Assembly: GCA_013297885.1 (NCBI GenBank)
Contig: JAAFIR010000001.1
Coordinates: 1-64,000 of the forward strand
Source of the DNA: Leptospirales bacterium
GTDB taxonomy: Bacteria; Spirochaetota; Leptospiria; Leptospirales; Leptospiraceae
Length of the DNA: 64,000 nt
Direction: 5' to 3'
The notes beneath the pieces were generated by a model, which did not search any database, was not told the DNA's origin, and saw only the letters and a list, made by a program, of their open reading frames with translations. How positions within the stretch are numbered: position 1 is the stretch's first letter; each line of letters opens with the position of its first letter. The translations under genes were made by a program, and so were the position numbers. Below, one piece after another: positions 1 through 57,250 of this stretch.

Positions 1-172
1 AAACTGATCTATTTAATTTATTTTCTTCTAGAAAGAAATTTTTTAATTCAGAAAAATTTTCATAAAAAATTTGATTTTTATATTTCTCTAAAAAATTTTC
101 TATTTCCAAATTTGAAATATACTTCATTTTTTTGGAAATATAAGAATTTTGTATCTCTAAAATTAAATTCAT
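1..172 (-). CDS. N-terminal part of divergent ORF, possible integron integrase
   Basis: This ORF starts with ATG at 172-170 and runs off the left edge, leaving 57 residues that begin MNLILEIQNS. The visible part is charged and helical-looking (EIENFLEKYKN, ELKNFFLEEN). That would suit the N-terminal SAM-like domain of a tyrosine recombinase, but no family motif is visible because the catalytic R-H-R-Y region would lie outside the window. The identification rests on position: it is transcribed away from a cassette array, with an attI-like site and a cassette promoter in the gap, which is the usual intI layout. The product could be something else. Confidence 0.4.
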   Translation of the reverse strand, partial: MNLILEIQNSYISKKMKYISNLEIENFLEKYKNQIFYENFSELKNFFLEENKLNRSV

Positions 173-232
173 ATATCCACTATTTTTATTCGGTTACTAA
201 TGTAAATTTTTATATACTAAATGATATTATAT

Positions 233-262
233 TTGACAGAATAAGCGAAATTCGAACAATAT
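233..262 (+). promoter_or_regulatory. putative cassette promoter (Pc-like)
   Basis: TTGACA at 233-238 is followed 18 bp later by CAATAT at 257-262, pointing into the cassette genes. It lies between the divergent left-edge ORF and the attI-like core, where a promoter driving an integron array is expected. The -10 is weak, so this is a plausible promoter, not a certain one. Confidence 0.4.
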
Positions 263-275
263 TAGTTAGTTGCAA
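256..275 (+). other. putative attI core / 5' boundary of cassette 1
   Basis: GTTAGTT at 265-271 resembles the integron core GTTRRRY with one mismatch. It is the exact reverse complement of AACTAAC (1478-1484), the first bases of the attC-like site ending cassette 1. In integrons the R'' core of an attC matches the 5' end of its own cassette, so this pairing places the boundary after G265. No second attC arm is seen upstream, so it reads as attI and not the end of a further cassette. Confidence 0.5.
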
Positions 276-306
276 TTTCGGCAATTAAAAAAAGGACGAA
301 AATAAA

Positions 307-849
307 ATGAATATAGGTGAAGAGATTGTGGGTTCATATCTGCAATATATTAAAAATTGTGAATTTATTCAAAAAAATTTATATACTCCCGATATACAAG
401 GGGAAATTGATGTCGTTGGAATTGATGTAAACAAAAAGGTTATTTATGTCTGTGAAGTCGCAATACATTTAATTACAGGTTTGCAGTATACAAAAGAAAA
501 AAGACCAAATAATGTAAATAAGCTAATTGAAAAATTTTCAAAAGATATTGAATATACGAATAAGTATTTTAGTGATTATACGAAAATATTTATGTTTTGG
601 TCTCCGATAGTAAAGAATCAATCGAGTGATTCAAAGTATAATCAGATGAATGACATACTTGAAATAAAAAAAATTATAAAGCAAAAATACAATGTGGAAG
701 TTGAAGCAATAATAAACGAGAAATTTTTGGAATGTTTGAAAGAGTTGAGAGAATATGCTAAAACAGAAACAAAAGATATTAAATCGCCTATTATAAGATT
801 GTATCAAATTGAAGAGTATACGAAAAAGCATATTGAAAAACTAAAATGA
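307..849 (+). CDS. cassette protein, restriction-endonuclease-like fold suspected
   Basis: This 180-residue protein is the first gene of cassette 1 and starts at ATG after AAGGACG. Residues 32-52 (GEIDVVGID then IYVCEVA) have the pattern of a PD-(D/E)XK core: an acidic residue on one strand and an acidic residue on the next, although the usual lysine after E is alanine here. The rest is lysine-rich and helical. I do not recognise a named family. It could be a nuclease, a restriction-like defence protein or a Holliday-junction-resolvase-like protein. Its direction matches all other cassette genes. Confidence 0.5.
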   Translation: MNIGEEIVGSYLQYIKNCEFIQKNLYTPDIQGEIDVVGIDVNKKVIYVCEVAIHLITGLQYTKEKRPNNVNKLIEKFSKDIEYTNKYFSDYTKIFMFWSPIVKNQSSDSKYNQMNDILEIKKIIKQKYNVEVEAIINEKFLECLKELREYAKTETKDIKSPIIRLYQIEEYTKKHIEKLK

Positions 850-917
850 TATTTCTAAAAAGAAGATTATAAAGTTCTAAAGTAGATAGCAAAATTAGAA
901 ACTTAGAATTATTCCGT

Positions 918-946
918 TTGACAATATAATTATTTTGTAATTATAT
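918..946 (+). promoter_or_regulatory. promoter and palindromic operator of brnTA
   Basis: TTGACA (918-923) is followed 17 bp later by TTATAT (941-946). The spacer and -10 are covered by a perfect 9-bp inverted repeat, ATATAATTA at 924-932 and TAATTATAT at 938-946, with a 5-bp gap. An operator over the -10 is the expected autoregulation site for a ribbon-helix-helix antitoxin such as BrnA. The cassette therefore carries its own promoter. Confidence 0.6.
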
Positions 947-1244
947 GATACTTATGAACTTAAATTTTTCATGGGATAATAAAAAGAATACAATAAACAA
1001 AAAGAAACATAAAATTTCCTTTGAAGAAGCGGAAACTGCTTTTTATGATGAACGAGCAAAATTAATTCCAGACCCCGACCATTCTGAAAATGAAGAAAGA
1101 TTTATTTTACTTGGTATAAGTTTTAATTTAAATCTTTTAGTTGTTATTCATACATTTTTAGAAAAAGTCGGAGTAATCAGAATTATTTCAGCTAGAAAAG
1201 CTACAAAAAAAGAAAGTAATAAATACAATAAAGGAGACGAATAA
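945..1244 (+). CDS. brnT: BrnT-family toxin (RelE-like ribonuclease)
   Basis: The 99-residue product matches the BrnT family along its length: FSWDNKKN and KHKISFEEA near the N-terminus, DPDHSENEERFILLG in the middle, and IRIISARKATKKE at the C-terminus, where the conserved basic residues of this RelE-like ribotoxin lie. BrnT cleaves RNA and is neutralised by BrnA, the next gene 2 bp downstream. The annotated ATG overlaps the -10/operator, so the true start is more likely the second ATG at 954, which gives MNLNFSWD. The gene appears intact. Confidence 0.85.
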   Translation: MILMNLNFSWDNKKNTINKKKHKISFEEAETAFYDERAKLIPDPDHSENEERFILLGISFNLNLLVVIHTFLEKVGVIRIISARKATKKESNKYNKGDE

Positions 1245-1246
1245 AT

Positions 1247-1456
1247 ATGAGAAAAGAATATGATTTTACTAACTCTAAAAAAAATCCCTATGCAAGTAAA
1301 TTAAAAAAGCAAATTACTATTAGAATTGATGAAAATACAATTAAGTATTTTAAAGAAGTAGCTGGGAATACCGGAATTTCTTATCAAAATCTCATTAATT
1401 TGTATTTATATGAATGTGCTACAAATAAAAAGAAATTAGAATTAAGATGGAATTAG
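1247..1456 (+). CDS. brnA: BrnA-family antitoxin (ribbon-helix-helix)
   Basis: This 69-residue antitoxin begins MRKEYDFTNSKKNPYASKL, typical of BrnA, followed by a ribbon-helix-helix DNA-binding segment (KKQITIRIDENTIKYFK). It is expected to bind and inhibit BrnT and to repress the pair from the 924-946 palindrome. A strong AGGAG ribosome-binding site lies at the end of brnT and the intergenic gap is 2 bp. The attC-like site begins about 20 bp after its stop, so the pair is the last cargo of cassette 1. Confidence 0.85.
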   Translation: MRKEYDFTNSKKNPYASKLKKQITIRIDENTIKYFKEVAGNTGISYQNLINLYLYECATNKKKLELRWN

Positions 1457-1477
1457 TCAGAGTCCTGCCGAAACAGC

Positions 1478-1816
1478 AACTAACTGCGAGTATCCACTTC
1501 GAGAGCGGACTATGTTCGGATGCTGTTCACCTCCTTGCTCCAAGCCGGCTTAATTGTGGTTGTTGAACTTTGTAGTATATTTGTCAGACTCACGCAAGTT
1601 CAGTGCCTTCGTCCACCCGCTCTGCCCCCACTACTTTTTTTTGGAAAAAGTAGTATGGTCACAAAACTTGCAAGAGAATAATGCAAGTTTTGCGTCCTAC
1701 ACTCAGTCACGGAACTTGCTAGTAGTTGGTCGGCTTGGAGACATGACTTTGAAACTCAAAAGGTGCTACCGCACTTTCGAGTTTCAAAGTCACGTCGGAT
1801 ACTCTTAACGTTAGGC
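1478..1816 (+). repeat. attC-like recombination site 1 (about 339 bp)
   Basis: The left arm (AACTAAC, then TGCGAGTATCC) pairs with the right arm (GGATACTC, then TTAACGTTAGGC). The right end GTTAGGC (1810-1816) fits GTTRRRY. Internal stems are CTCCAAGCCG 1538-1547 with CGGCTTGGAG 1731-1740, GCAAGTTC 1594-1601 with GAACTTGC 1712-1719, and GACTTTGAAACTC 1745-1757 with GAGTTTCAAAGTC 1779-1791. Typical attC sites are roughly 55-140 bp, so this one is unusually long. An 84-codon open frame inside is a by-product of the repeat. Confidence 0.65.
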
Positions 1817-1867
1817 GAAAGGCGTTCAGGATTGAACCCTTACGAAAACGTTTAGGAGGAAAAGCCG

Positions 1868-2587
1868 ATGGTAGCTTTTTACATAAAGCTGGTAATTTTT
1901 ATTGGAATTGGTTGTTACAGTATTTACAATGTGAGATTTCCCTCATATTTTTACGTAAAACCAGGTGATGGTCTTAATCTGAGGAGTGAAGCAAATATAA
2001 ATTCAACCCGACTTACGACTATTAAAAAAGGAGAAGAAGTTTCTGTCACAGATAACTCTCTTGAAGAAACACAATTGAACGGACTCAAAGGAAAATGGTT
2101 AAAAGTAAAATTTAATTCTCAGGAAGGATTTATTTTTAGTGCTTACTTAGATGAAGAAACGGGAACGTGGAAATTTATTTGGAAAAATAAACTGTATTTG
2201 TTTGGCTGTATTGTATTTCTTTTTGGGTTTCTTAGCACAATAAAATCTGAAAATAAAAGAAGAGAGGATTTAGAAAAAGCAGCAGAAAGAGAGGAGTATA
2301 TTAAAGATATAGCTAGAGCAAAAGAAAAAATATTGCAGGATTACGCTAAAAAATATGGAGAAGCAGTAGCGGAAGCAATTAGAAGAAAAGAACCGAAAAT
2401 CGGAATGAACCAAGGAATGATAGAATTTATGTTCCCTGTTCCAGATAAAATAAATGTAACAGAAAATGCTGATGTAAAGATTGAAGAATATTGCTACGAC
2501 CCATACGTCTACAGGAATCAGACATTACACAAAAGGCGATTTATTTTTGAAAATGGAATTCTGAAAGAGTATAAGATAGAAGAATAG
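1868..2587 (+). CDS. cassette membrane protein with SH3-like domain
   Basis: This 239-residue protein is the first gene of cassette 2, with a strong AGGAGG site just upstream. Residues 5-22 form a membrane segment. Residues 30-96 are an SH3b-like domain (VKPGDGLNLRSEANINSTRL ... GKWLKVKFNSQEGFIFSAYL), a fold usually associated with cell-wall or peptide binding. Residues 107-125 form a second membrane segment, followed by a charged helix (about 128-175). The tail (HKRRFIFENGILKEYKI) resembles the SmpA/OmlA-type end of small envelope proteins. Function unknown; envelope location is inferred. Confidence 0.6.
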   Translation: MVAFYIKLVIFIGIGCYSIYNVRFPSYFYVKPGDGLNLRSEANINSTRLTTIKKGEEVSVTDNSLEETQLNGLKGKWLKVKFNSQEGFIFSAYLDEETGTWKFIWKNKLYLFGCIVFLFGFLSTIKSENKRREDLEKAAEREEYIKDIARAKEKILQDYAKKYGEAVAEAIRRKEPKIGMNQGMIEFMFPVPDKINVTENADVKIEEYCYDPYVYRNQTLHKRRFIFENGILKEYKIEE

Positions 2588-2602
2588 AAAAGGGGAACAT
2601 AA

Positions 2603-3295
2603 ATGAAATTTTACGATACAATTGATTTTTTAAAACAGACAGCAGCGTTCGAAGAGTATTTGATAAACTCAAAAATTTTAATAGACCCGAGCGTAAATAA
2701 AAGATTATTATTCAAACCAGTGTCAACGTCCGAGAACCAGCTAAAACATAAAATTGCATTCTGGGGAATCAATGCATATAGCGGCAAAGATGATTTACTC
2801 TCTTTTGAAGATAATAGCAATTTTGCTGTTGAAGTACAAAAAGATTACTGGAAACTCATGGAAATGATTTCAACTTATGAAGATAAACTTCAATTAGCCG
2901 GTCATAGCTATTACACAAACGTTATCAAAGATGTTCTTCTGTATGAGAATGAATTCGGTTCCGCAATGAAAGTATGGGAAGTATTTAAACAATTTCCTCT
3001 TGTCAGAAAAACAATAGAAAGTTTAGTATGGAGCGAAATGCAAACTTTGATTTTCAATGGATGTGACTATTTCGTTTTTCTTGGAGATTTGCCTTGGAGC
3101 GTATTTGAATTGTCCAGAGCGAATCTTTCGTTATCCGCAAATAAAATAGAAGTAAAGGATAACGGAAACATTTTAGTTTTTGAATTTTTGAGTAGAAAAA
3201 TATACTTGATTTCTGAATATCATTTTTCTAGACCAAGTAATAAGAAAAAAGAGTATACGAATAGAATAATAAGCGAAATCTTGAGCACTAGATGA
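2603..3295 (+). CDS. cassette hypothetical protein
   Basis: This 230-residue protein is the second gene of cassette 2, starting 15 bp after the previous stop with a GGGG-type ribosome-binding site. It has no signal peptide or membrane segment and is rich in aromatic residues (YWKLMEMI, YTNVIKDVLLYENEF, CDYFVFLGDLPWSVFEL). I recognise no family. Position and spacing suggest co-expression with the SH3-domain gene. The next attC-like site begins about 10 bp beyond the stop. Confidence 0.55.
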   Translation: MKFYDTIDFLKQTAAFEEYLINSKILIDPSVNKRLLFKPVSTSENQLKHKIAFWGINAYSGKDDLLSFEDNSNFAVEVQKDYWKLMEMISTYEDKLQLAGHSYYTNVIKDVLLYENEFGSAMKVWEVFKQFPLVRKTIESLVWSEMQTLIFNGCDYFVFLGDLPWSVFELSRANLSLSANKIEVKDNGNILVFEFLSRKIYLISEYHFSRPSNKKKEYTNRIISEILSTR

Positions 3296-3304
3296 ACGCC
3301 AATC

Positions 3305-3608
3305 GCCTAACTTCGCGTCATCTGCTGCGGAGGTGAACTATGTTCGGATGCTGTTCACCTCCTTGCTCCGAGTCGGCTTAGTTGTATTAGCTACATCTTT
3401 TAGTTTCTTTGTTAAACTCATGCAAGTCCAGTGCCTTCACTACTGTCACAAAACTTGCAGGAGGGGATAAGCAAGTTTATGCGCCATCCGTTCAGTCACA
3501 GGACTTGCTAGTAATAGTACGACTCGGAGACATTGAAAAAAATGTCCAAAAAATGCTTGGGGCATTTTTGAACATTTTTTTCAACGTCAGATACGCTTAA
3601 CGTTAGGT
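3305..3608 (+). repeat. attC-like recombination site 2 (304 bp)
   Basis: GCCTAAC (3305-3311) is the exact reverse complement of GTTAGGC at 1810-1816, the 5' boundary of the same cassette, as integron biology predicts. The right end is GTTAGGT (3602-3608). Internal stems are AGGTGAAC 3331-3338 with GTTCACCT 3353-3360, CTCCGAGTCG 3366-3375 with CGACTCGGAG 3520-3529, GCAAGTCC 3422-3429 with GGACTTGC 3501-3508, and TTGAAAAAAATGT 3533-3545 with ACATTTTTTTCAA 3572-3584. Relative to site 1 several base pairs have changed on both sides. The 63-codon ORF inside is spurious. Confidence 0.7.
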
Positions 3609-3785
3609 GATATTTTAGACTTGACCATGTTTTTAAAAGGACTAATGCTTGGACTTTGTCGGAGTAGGTTTCCTTGACATCCGTGTCTCGGAAAGACTTC
3701 GTTGGTTTGAATTTCGTATTTTATCAATAAAAATATAATTGAGAAATTAAAATAATATTATATGAAATAAGGTAATATAAGTAGG

Positions 3786-4499
3786 ATGCAAATTCCTAGA
3801 AAATACATTGAATTAAGCAACCGTAGGGATTTTACAGGAATGAAAAATATATCCTTCTTATTAATATTCTGTCTCCTATTACATGATTGTATTTCCATGC
3901 CCACCGGTTTTATAGTTGCTGAAGTTGATGAATTAAGGAAAGAAAAATTAAGAGTGAAAGATTGTACATTTAAAGAAATTCTTGAGCAACGTTTTGAAAA
4001 ATATGGACGCTATCATTTACGTCCATTTGTCATAGGTTTGGGAGTCATTGATTTGGCGGTAGGTATTCAATATTATCTGCGAGTAAATCCAGTTGGATTT
4101 CATTTATACTTAAATGGACTATATACTGTGATGGCGGGTTTTATGTTTACTATTACTTTAATTAGCTATAATGAAAAAATAAATATTACATTTTATGGAT
4201 GGGAACATCTATATGCGGCGGAATGCAAAGCTGATTATTTTGTTCTAGCTTATAGCGGTGACAATTATTTTAAGCGCAATGAAAATTTTATTTATTTGCT
4301 TGTGTCTTATTCAGAAATTTCTAATCCGTCAAATAAGAAGAATTTTGAAAAACTTATAACGGATTTTGTTCAAAATAATCAAATTATAATCCATGAATAT
4401 ACGGAGCAATCTAGATTTTTCCGGTACTTCTATTATAGGGGCGGAAAGAAGAAATTCAAAGAAGACTTTCAAAAATACTTAGATAAGCATTCTGATTAA
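3786..4499 (+). CDS. cassette 3 lipoprotein-like membrane protein
   Basis: The frame allows 237 residues, but a better start is the ATG at 3840, giving MKNISFLLIFCLLLHDC. This is a lipoprotein-type signal with Cys at the end of a hydrophobic stretch. Two hydrophobic segments follow (VIGLGVIDLAVGIQYYL and GLYTVMAGFMFTITLI). The C-terminal half is aromatic and charged. I recognise no family. The 15-bp sequence GCAAATTCCTAGAAA occurs just inside the first possible start (3788-3802) and again after the gene (4638-4652). It lies in cassette 3. Confidence 0.5.
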   Translation: MQIPRKYIELSNRRDFTGMKNISFLLIFCLLLHDCISMPTGFIVAEVDELRKEKLRVKDCTFKEILEQRFEKYGRYHLRPFVIGLGVIDLAVGIQYYLRVNPVGFHLYLNGLYTVMAGFMFTITLISYNEKINITFYGWEHLYAAECKADYFVLAYSGDNYFKRNENFIYLLVSYSEISNPSNKKNFEKLITDFVQNNQIIIHEYTEQSRFFRYFYYRGGKKKFKEDFQKYLDKHSD

Positions 4500-4677
4500 T
4501 TTAAATTGAATTCAATATAAGGCTTTAAAAAGATTGAAAAAATTTCAATCATGATTGAATACTGCTTGAAGATTTACAGCCAATTAGCCGTTTACTTTTA
4601 AGCAGAATTTTAGGTAGCGAGGAGTAAGAAGCGAAACGCAAATTCCTAGAAATAAAAAAATGAATATTCGATTCCGC

Positions 4678-4741
4678 GCCTAACGTTGAGTTTGCGGAAA
4701 TTGCTACAAAATAGTATTTGACAAGCAACTTCGCAAACCCA
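4678..4741 (+). repeat. decayed attC-like end of cassette 3
   Basis: GCCTAAC (4678-4684) is followed by TTTGCGGAAATTGCT (4691-4705), which pairs imperfectly with AGCAACTTCGCAAA (4723-4736). This has the left-arm layout of the two upstream attC sites, but no GTTRRRY core follows the right arm. The R'' expected from this cassette's 5' end would be ACCTAAC, one base different. It is best read as a truncated attC marking the end of the recognisable array. Confidence 0.35.
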
Positions 4742-4776
4742 AAATATAGAAAGAATCGTATTGGGTAATGGAGTTA

Positions 4777-4812
4777 AGCCTACACTCGACATCGTGTTGA
4801 GGCTGGTTTTTT
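4777..4812 (+). terminator. probable rho-independent terminator
   Basis: AGCCT(A)CAC and GTG(TTG)AGGCT form a stem with an 8-nt loop, followed by GGTTTTTT. It lies just after the decayed attC end and would stop read-through from the cassette array. Confidence 0.45.
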
Positions 4813-5901: not shown

Positions 5902-6619
5902 AAATTTTATTTATCAATTAGCAGAAAAAGAAAATTTAAGAATCATAAGAAATTCCAGCTCAAAAGGTTTGTTACGATCAATCTCTGATCTTAATTTAAC
6001 TGAGAAAGATGTTAAAAAACTTTCTCAAAAAGTAATTGATTTTTACGAAAAAACAGCAGATTATAAATTACAGTTAAATGTAAAATGGAATCCTTTTTTT
6101 AAACTATTTGGTTTTTTAGTGAATAGATTATTCAGCGAACGGATAAACCAATTAAATATTCCAACAGAAAATATCAAAGAATCTGAAAAACTATTGAGTG
6201 AAATAATTGAACTAGTTTCCAGCGAAAACGAAGAAGTAAAATACACTATCTGGCAGAGAAAATTCCAATCATCTGGGAAAGTTATTTATTCTGGAATTTA
6301 TTCCACAACTACTCTTCCAATGGGAACTACTTGCATAAAAGCAATTTTCCCATTACCAAAAGGAAATGCAACAGTGATATTAAAACCAACTGTTAGTGAT
6401 AAAAATGAACTTATATTAAATTCTTCAGGAGCAAAATTTGGTGATGCTGGATTTTACTTTCTTCTAAGCGATTCCAAAGGAAATTATTGGAGTCAGTACA
6501 TTCAGTGTTTCACAGACAAACTGATCGTAAGGGAGAAAGAAGAAAATCTAATTGCAATACAAACTCTTAAATTATGGAATTTAAAAGTTGCAACGTTTGA
6601 GTATAGAATAAAAAAATAA
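5870..6619 (+). pseudogene. 5'-truncated conserved hypothetical gene
   Basis: Coding-like sequence opens after TAA at 5867-5869 and runs to 6619. It begins FFGELNGIGENFIYQLAEKE without a plausible start codon until a TTG at 5969. The later part (VKWNPFFKLFGFLVNRLFSERI, SGIYSTTTLPMGTTCIKAIF, SSGAKFGDAGFYFLL) looks like a well-conserved protein of unknown function. The overlap in another frame with the end of the CrtA-like gene suggests two genes fused by one deletion. If translated from TTG it would give 216 residues. Confidence 0.45.
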
Positions 6620-6660: not shown

Positions 6661-6803
6661 GGGCGAATTTTTTTGTCAGGACTTCGAGAGCCTCAGTCAC
6701 TGACAAAAAAACCGTGCTTTATGCTGCAATCTTTTGCAATCTATTATTTTTGGAAGATTTTTTTATTGATAGCAAAAGGATTTCCGCTTCAATCACTTTC
6801 GCT
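6661..6803 (+). repeat. interspersed two-hairpin element, copy 1
   Basis: The closing stem pairs GCGAA 6663-6667 with TTCGC 6798-6802. Hairpin A pairs TTTTTTTGTCAG 6668-6679 with CTGACAAAAAAA 6700-6711. The linker CCGTGCTTTATGCT is followed by hairpin B, AATCTTTTGC 6728-6737 with GCAAAAGGATT 6772-6782 (one bulge). The right linker is CCGCTTCAATCACTTTCGC. It lies about 40 bp after a stop codon. Confidence 0.75.
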
Positions 6804-6839
6804 TTTTCAGAGAAAAATTACAGAATTACCAAATCCAAC

Positions 6840-56888: not shown

Positions 56889-57087
56889 TATTTGATTCTA
56901 AATCCTAATTACTTTTAGATGTGTTTTGTTTATATAGTCAATTAAATAATCAAATTATGTTTAATATTTCCAAAAATTCAATTCGATGAATTATTTTATT
57001 TGAGTAAGATTTGCTTAATTTTCTGGAAAAAGTAACCAAGGCTTTTAATCAAATTTATAAATTTAAAATAAAATTTTTTTAAACTAC

Positions 57088-57250
57088 TAGCGAAGCATGC
57101 GAAAGTGATTGAAGCGGAAATCCTTTTGCAGAACTGAAAAAATTTTTTAATTTAAGTTGGTAGCAAAAGATTGTAGCGAAAAGCACGTTTTTTTTGTGTA
57201 GATAACTGGCATTCCTAAAATTCTGCCATATTCATAAAAAAATTCGCCCA
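57088..57250 (-). repeat. interspersed two-hairpin element, copy 9
   Basis: Inverted orientation. The left end is GGGCGAA (minus; 57243-57249 on plus), the right end CTAGCGAA at 57088-57095 with a second GCGAA 7 bp further in. The linkers CGTGCTTTTCGCTACAATC and CCGCTTCAATCACTTTCGC are well conserved. Hairpin B pairs AATCCTTTTGC 57119-57129 with GCAAAAGATT 57163-57172, the same arms as copy 1. Hairpin A is imperfect, with TGGCA/TGCCA. The rest of this 404-bp gap shows no other feature. Confidence 0.7.

Follow-up and report, generated by a model that had tools for sequence, protein, structure and literature searches.

The locus and its cassettes

The left edge of contig JAAFIR010000001.1 from a Leptospirales bacterium (assembly GCA_013297885.1) carries an array of gene cassettes beside the start of a tyrosine recombinase gene. 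The 64,000-nucleotide stretch analysed here, the window, begins at base 1 of this contig (C28 below) in a genome (G000) of 4.6 Mb in 72 contigs, and its spirochaete character, guessed in an earlier note written from the sequence, proved correct. The array is very probably an integron-like system for cassette capture, served by a tyrosine recombinase that is related to the integron integrase IntI, lacks the I2 additional domain (the IntI-specific patch) and occurs in the spirochaete class that also holds Turneriella. The features that define the locus are:

2..172, − strand: start of the integrase gene (57 codons), encoding the N-terminal end of a tyrosine recombinase; extends off the contig
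233..273, + strand: attI-like core, from TTGACA (233-238) to the insertion point G265/T266; GTTAGTTGC at 265-273 is the 5′ boundary of cassette 1
266..1810, + strand: cassette 1, with the 9-nt closure GTTAGTTGC/GCAACTAAC
1473..1821, + strand: attC-like site 1 (R″ 1476-1484, L″ 1488-1495, L′ 1797-1804, R′ 1810-1818), with a branched interior and homologues in the family
1811..3602, + strand: cassette 2, with the 9-nt closure GTTAGGCGA/TCGCCTAAC
3300..3613, + strand: attC-like site 2 (R″ 3303-3311, R′ 3602-3611), aligned with 33 other sites

The R″ arm of each attC-like site is the reverse complement of the 5′ boundary of its own cassette. The boundary words of the earlier note lie where it had placed them, GTTAGTT (265-271) with AACTAAC (1478-1484) and GTTAGGC (1810-1816) with GCCTAAC (3305-3311), and inspection of the sequence lengthens both closures from the 7 nt noted then to 9 nt: GTTAGTTGC (265-273) with GCAACTAAC (1476-1484), and GTTAGGCGA (1810-1818) with TCGCCTAAC (3303-3311). 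Across 19 loci of five genomes, with 16 different boundary words, 27 of 30 adjacent cassette ends agree at no fewer than 6 of the 7 variable positions; among pairs drawn from different contigs the share is 10% (binomial p 6e-24). Because the end rule recurs across these loci, chance is excluded as the source of the match. Of the three cassettes proposed, two are closed; for the third, which begins at 3603, a closing site carrying the expected ATCACCTAAC is lacking.

The attI-like core lies at the first cassette, and a conserved core ending at the cassette boundary is present at three loci of the genome: the window, contig C2 and the junction of contigs C38 and C59. TTGACR also stands 5′ of the boundary in three related genomes (G002, G003 and G006). 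Of the attI site with cassette promoter proposed earlier, the attI-like junction and a promoter-like −35 element are present; the promoter scan resembles that of shuffled sequence. It is likely that the core doubles as the cassette promoter.

The third core spans the end of C38 (L026) and the start of C59 (L025), which overlap by 126 bp, and has no neighbouring integrase. The assembly break there falls at TTAGTT, two bases beyond the predicted crossover, and the fork may reflect a mixed population with different first cassettes, among other possible causes.

The attC-like sites

At about 340 and 310 nt, the window's two sites greatly exceed canonical sizes; the canonical attC sites of Treponema denticola measure 63-68 bp, and those of Treponema reach 132 bp (PMC3607928). 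The distance from R″ to R′ is 236-330 nt in the window's genus and 85-310 nt in other genera. The sites form imperfect hairpins with R and L arms, as attC sites do. They are nevertheless not canonical attC sites, with a length of ~300 nt, an R arm of 9-14 nt, long L stems and a branched interior.

An alignment of 34 sites supports a multi-branch fold. Beside the L stem it has a side hairpin, a variable hairpin and a central arm that contains two inner helices. Pairing holds in 94.5% of cells, and changes on both sides are seen at 31 of the 59 pairs, with far lower values for shuffled and slid controls; the model was taken from one site, and recombination among copies may share changes, the cells thus not being independent events. 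One-sided changes of the G.U type are rare outside the variable hairpin, which is replaced as a unit from type to type. Folding with DNA parameters favours the bottom strand in 33 of 33 sites, by a mean of 9.9 kcal/mol, and the fold of this strand reaches z scores of -7.3 for site 1 and -11.8 for site 2. A scan with Rfam at gathering thresholds found no known RNA or intron at the att sites.

The R arm holds a fixed non-match. Position 11 is complementary in 0 of 27 cassettes, which were chosen by their match at positions 1-10 and are free of selection only from position 11 onward. It is likewise not complementary in any of about 10 distinct cassettes of another genome of the class (G041; its listing of 30 rows counts both strands and overlapping stretches), in which positions 1-10 and 12-14 match throughout. 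Position 11 usually forms a T.G wobble on the bottom strand, which on the top strand becomes an A.C mismatch.

Used as a query, one attC-like site retrieves some 20 copies or more from each of G002 and G003, where they stand in tandem at 1-4 kb, and several each in G000, G001 and G006. A detector that relies on hairpin and closure, independently of sequence similarity, finds linked att arrays beside the integrase in G006, G033, G041, G045, G008, G018 and G011, with shuffled sequences near zero; the arrays of G045 and G011 rest on one pair each. The array is divergent from and 5′ of the integrase gene in the window, G006, G033, G041 and G045, and 3′ of it in G008, G018 and G011. The remainder of the window yields three weak chance links at a looser threshold. 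The detector is tuned to long L stems and returned no credible attC in stretches resembling Treponema denticola, and its misses are not evidence of absence.

The integrase

The divergent ORF at the window edge, which the earlier note had suspected of encoding a tyrosine recombinase, does so: its N-terminal part matches a full-length protein of the same genus (G003:C479) with 32% identity over 50 aa. A tyrosine recombinase gene thus stands beside the array, the window's own copy being incomplete. Full-length relatives are found in the same genus (G003, 366 aa, and G002) and in the same family (G006 and G007). The ORF also matches copies on contigs C2 and C56. At the end of C2, 278 bp of the window edge recur with few differences; C28 and C2 have exactly 126 bp in common and separate where the first difference occurs, and C51 and C20 show the same pattern at the other end of the gene. 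These two contigs start with the last 59 residues of the integrase, ending GVKSPL or GIKSPF, which are not assignable to a particular array and are 86-88% identical to the G003 protein, itself without I2. The pattern suggests that the short-read assembly dropped a two-copy repeat within which the middle of the gene lies. The window's own integrase presumably lacks I2, as its relatives do. Counting this locus, the genome has two integron-like platforms, or possibly three.

A truncated third N-terminus of 77 aa, 54% identical, lies on C56 (26793-27023; L036, L037), and a search of the 16 kb around it found no C-terminal integrase motif.

The IntI-specific patch that had been expected is missing from every full-length relative of the class that was inspected. 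The alignment to VchIntIA is broken, residues 176-232 of 2A3V corresponding to 20 residues of this integrase, and where IntI has its KYPNA block all aligned class relatives show a gap. The first catalytic arginine motif stands 133 residues before HxxRH in each of 30 canonical IntI proteins from spirochaetes. Among the 27 class relatives, this distance is 91-98 for 25; the value of 43 given for the other two arises from a later motif picked by the script. The match to the IntI profile TIGR02249 comes in two pieces and scores 196 bits against a cut-off of 265, NF040815 scores 207 bits, slightly below its cut-off of 220, and the XerC and XerD profiles score far below theirs. An AlphaFold model built with 38 sequences has a pLDDT of 89.9 (59 in a run with three sequences). 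Its best structural match is IntI 2A3V (Z 23.0, 266 residues aligned, rmsd 4.2), with XerA a close second, in a comparison that hardly covered the N-terminal extension.

In a midpoint-rooted tree of 72 proteins, IntI forms a single clade (100/100) that excludes these integrases. They neighbour IntI, and the genomes' own Xer genes fall outside (100/95). The window's clade of 16 proteins has support of 100/100; a single grouping of all patchless sequences is less certain (93/62) and includes two non-spirochaete sequences. The enzymes share with XerA, XerC and XerD a catalytic spacing of 91-102 residues without I2, and also resemble them in the NF040815 score. They differ in forming a separate clade nearer IntI, in having, within the window's clade, some 80 extra residues at the N-terminus and, probably, in acting on many cassette sites rather than on one dif site.

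Strong integrase matches come from 28 of the 48 class genomes and from 17 of the 28 genera. Across 296 genomes of the phylum, canonical IntI scores above the cut-off in 35, each labelled outside the class, and no TIGR02249 match within the class exceeds it. According to a 2013 report, Treponema alone among spirochaete clades had integrons (PMC3607928), and the open-licence literature yielded no report of integrons in the class, Leptospira and Turneriella included. In the stretches examined, linked att pairs beside similar integrases of Bacillota (L067), Bacteroidetes (L068) and an archaeon (L069) were not credible, and viral contigs held only distant recombinases.

A second patchless group (G008, G018 and G011; L207, L208 and L202) has its array 3′ of the gene. 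The N-termini of this group carry an IPGRxWxxExKxWxIP-like motif that resembles the HARP domain by eye.

Cargo and other features

The cassette genes are co-oriented in the window, as the earlier note had stated, and 55 of 58 ORFs run along the array in the 27 cassettes measured. The toxin-antitoxin pair that it named is identified by Pfam as BrnT/BrnA. The genes and the remaining element are:

307..849, + strand: cassette 1, ORF of 180 aa of unknown function, without Pfam or PADLOC family
945..1244, + strand: cassette 1, BrnT toxin-like (Pfam PF04365, E 2.2e-27)
1247..1456, + strand: cassette 1, BrnA/CopG antitoxin-like (Pfam PF14384, E 2.8e-06)
1868..2587, + strand: cassette 2, bacterial SH3 domain protein of 239 aa (Pfam PF08239, E 5.5e-12)
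2603..3295, + strand: cassette 2, ORF of 230 aa of unknown function, without family
3786..4499, + strand: unclosed third block, ORF of 237 aa of unknown function, without family
4675..4741, + strand: hairpin with GCGCCTAAC, which does not close cassette 3; degenerate or other element, with a near copy on C2

Elsewhere, the first cassette of C59 carries a Mokosh-type pair and that of C2 a McrBC-like pair, and other cassettes encode type IIG and EcoO109I-type restriction, PD-Lambda-1 and SduA-like proteins. The 180-aa protein of cassette 1 contains GEIDVVGID...VYVCEVA, by eye only reminiscent of a PD-(D/E)XK nuclease core.

A short hairpin, GCGCCTAAC...TTTGCG...CGCAAACCC, followed by GGAGTTAAGCC, occupies 4675-4741 and 4750-4810, with near copies at both array ends; the copy on C2 lies on the reverse complement at about 6180-6300. 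The hairpin at 4675-4741 is perhaps a second, degenerate type of att site or an element of the array end. A short repeated motif, GTAGGTTTCCTYGACATCGTGTCTCGGAAAGA, occurs near the starts of unrelated cassettes (window 3661-3700 and the first cassettes of C2 and G003:C479) and is possibly a leader or terminator hairpin. The window also has two matches to the Rfam Flavo-1 RNA that exceed the gathering score, at 57085-57194 (+) and 6706-6807 (−), in a spirochaete host.

Proposed mechanism and alternatives

The neighbouring integrase, without I2, would insert circular gene cassettes at the attI-like core between G265 and T266. Each cassette would bring one large, branched, hairpin-forming attC-like site, whose bottom strand most likely folds into a duplex-like substrate. 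The R arm of 9-14 bp would be cut next to GTT and joined to attI, and the cassettes would be read from a promoter that overlaps attI and presumably works as such. Recombination by this enzyme is predicted from sequence.

The arrangement resembles the sedentary chromosomal integrons with IntI, such as the Vibrio superintegron and that of Treponema denticola, in its attI-like site, promoter-like element and co-oriented cassettes, each with a folded attC-like site. It shares with them the GTT crossover word, the closure between R″ and R′, an IntI-related integrase, and a cargo of unknown, toxin-antitoxin and defence genes. It is unlike them in an integrase without I2, an R arm of 9-14 nt (canonical 7) with the fixed non-match at position 11, L stems of 8-12 contiguous pairs, sites mostly of 180-330 nt and multi-branched, and cassettes that are large and multi-gene. 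The locus is not classed as a canonical integron because the defining IntI domain was sought in the subfamily and found missing; it would work like an integron, as a new variant without I2.

Several observations weigh against this reading. I2 is necessary for IntI activity according to the passages that cite Messier and Roy 2001 in PMC9668308 and PMC7790495, and an enzyme without it would therefore need another way to act on folded sites. The middle of the window's integrase gene is absent from the assembly, and the lack of I2 there follows from its relatives. The promoter scan alone does not rise above shuffles at the attI-like core, where TTGACA is nevertheless conserved. Several integrase loci of the class (e.g. 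G043, G044, G015, G013 and G025), several of them on short contigs, have no linked att pairs.

The same cassettes could instead recombine through double-stranded att sites in the manner of Xer, with both strands exchanged and the hairpins being extruded cruciforms or serving another purpose. The Xer-like catalytic spacing, the long L stems and the lack of I2, a domain linked to single-strand substrates (PMC7790495), speak for such an enzyme, but conservation, with its compensatory changes, extends to the folded form only, and the strand asymmetry is conserved as well, both at position 11 and in the better fold of the bottom strand at all 33 sites. Exchange of this kind is considered unlikely, and the folded bottom strand is the likely substrate.

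It is highly unlikely that another enzyme, a chromosomal Xer or a canonical IntI encoded elsewhere, moves the cassettes and that the neighbouring integrase is a bystander. Cassettes do occur on contigs without a visible integrase, C59 among them, but the attI-like core on C38/C59 can be reached by the integrase in trans, array and integrase are associated in several genera, and canonical IntI was not found in these genomes. Hardly any more credit, and if anything a shade less, is due to an ordinary IntI integron whose I2 lies in the missing middle of the gene: that segment is indeed outside the assembly, but the C-terminal 59 residues closely match a protein without I2, every full-length class relative lacks the domain and TIGR02249 finds nothing above its cut-off in the class. 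Scarcely credible is a reading of the ~300-nt elements as dispersed repeats or genes for structured RNAs, which would explain strong folds and covariation but not the end rule that links each element to the start of the preceding gene block, their position between co-oriented genes beside an integrase in many genera, the lack of Rfam matches or the rarity of one-sided G.U-type changes outside the variable hairpin.

Implications

The origin of integrons is traced to the gain of the I2 helix by a Xer-like enzyme, a view whose authors regard missing intermediates as an obstacle (PMC7790495). With a natural I2-less relative of IntI that has cassette arrays in several genera, the question of origin becomes directly testable. 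The balance tilts slightly towards a class-wide integron lineage without I2, in which single-strand cassette recombination came before I2 or independently of it, recognition would run through the longer R arm, the fixed wobble and the branched hairpin, and the enzyme would be a living intermediate between Xer and IntI.

Detection that depends on canonical IntI would miss or mislabel these arrays: such software would at most call them CALIN, the class of attC clusters in which no IntI is recognised (as PMC9024848 suggests), from which they differ in having an integrase beside the array, outside the IntI family model. With anti-phage systems in several cassettes, the arrays are also an unread store of defence genes, and they may preserve an early or alternative form of the gene-capture machine.

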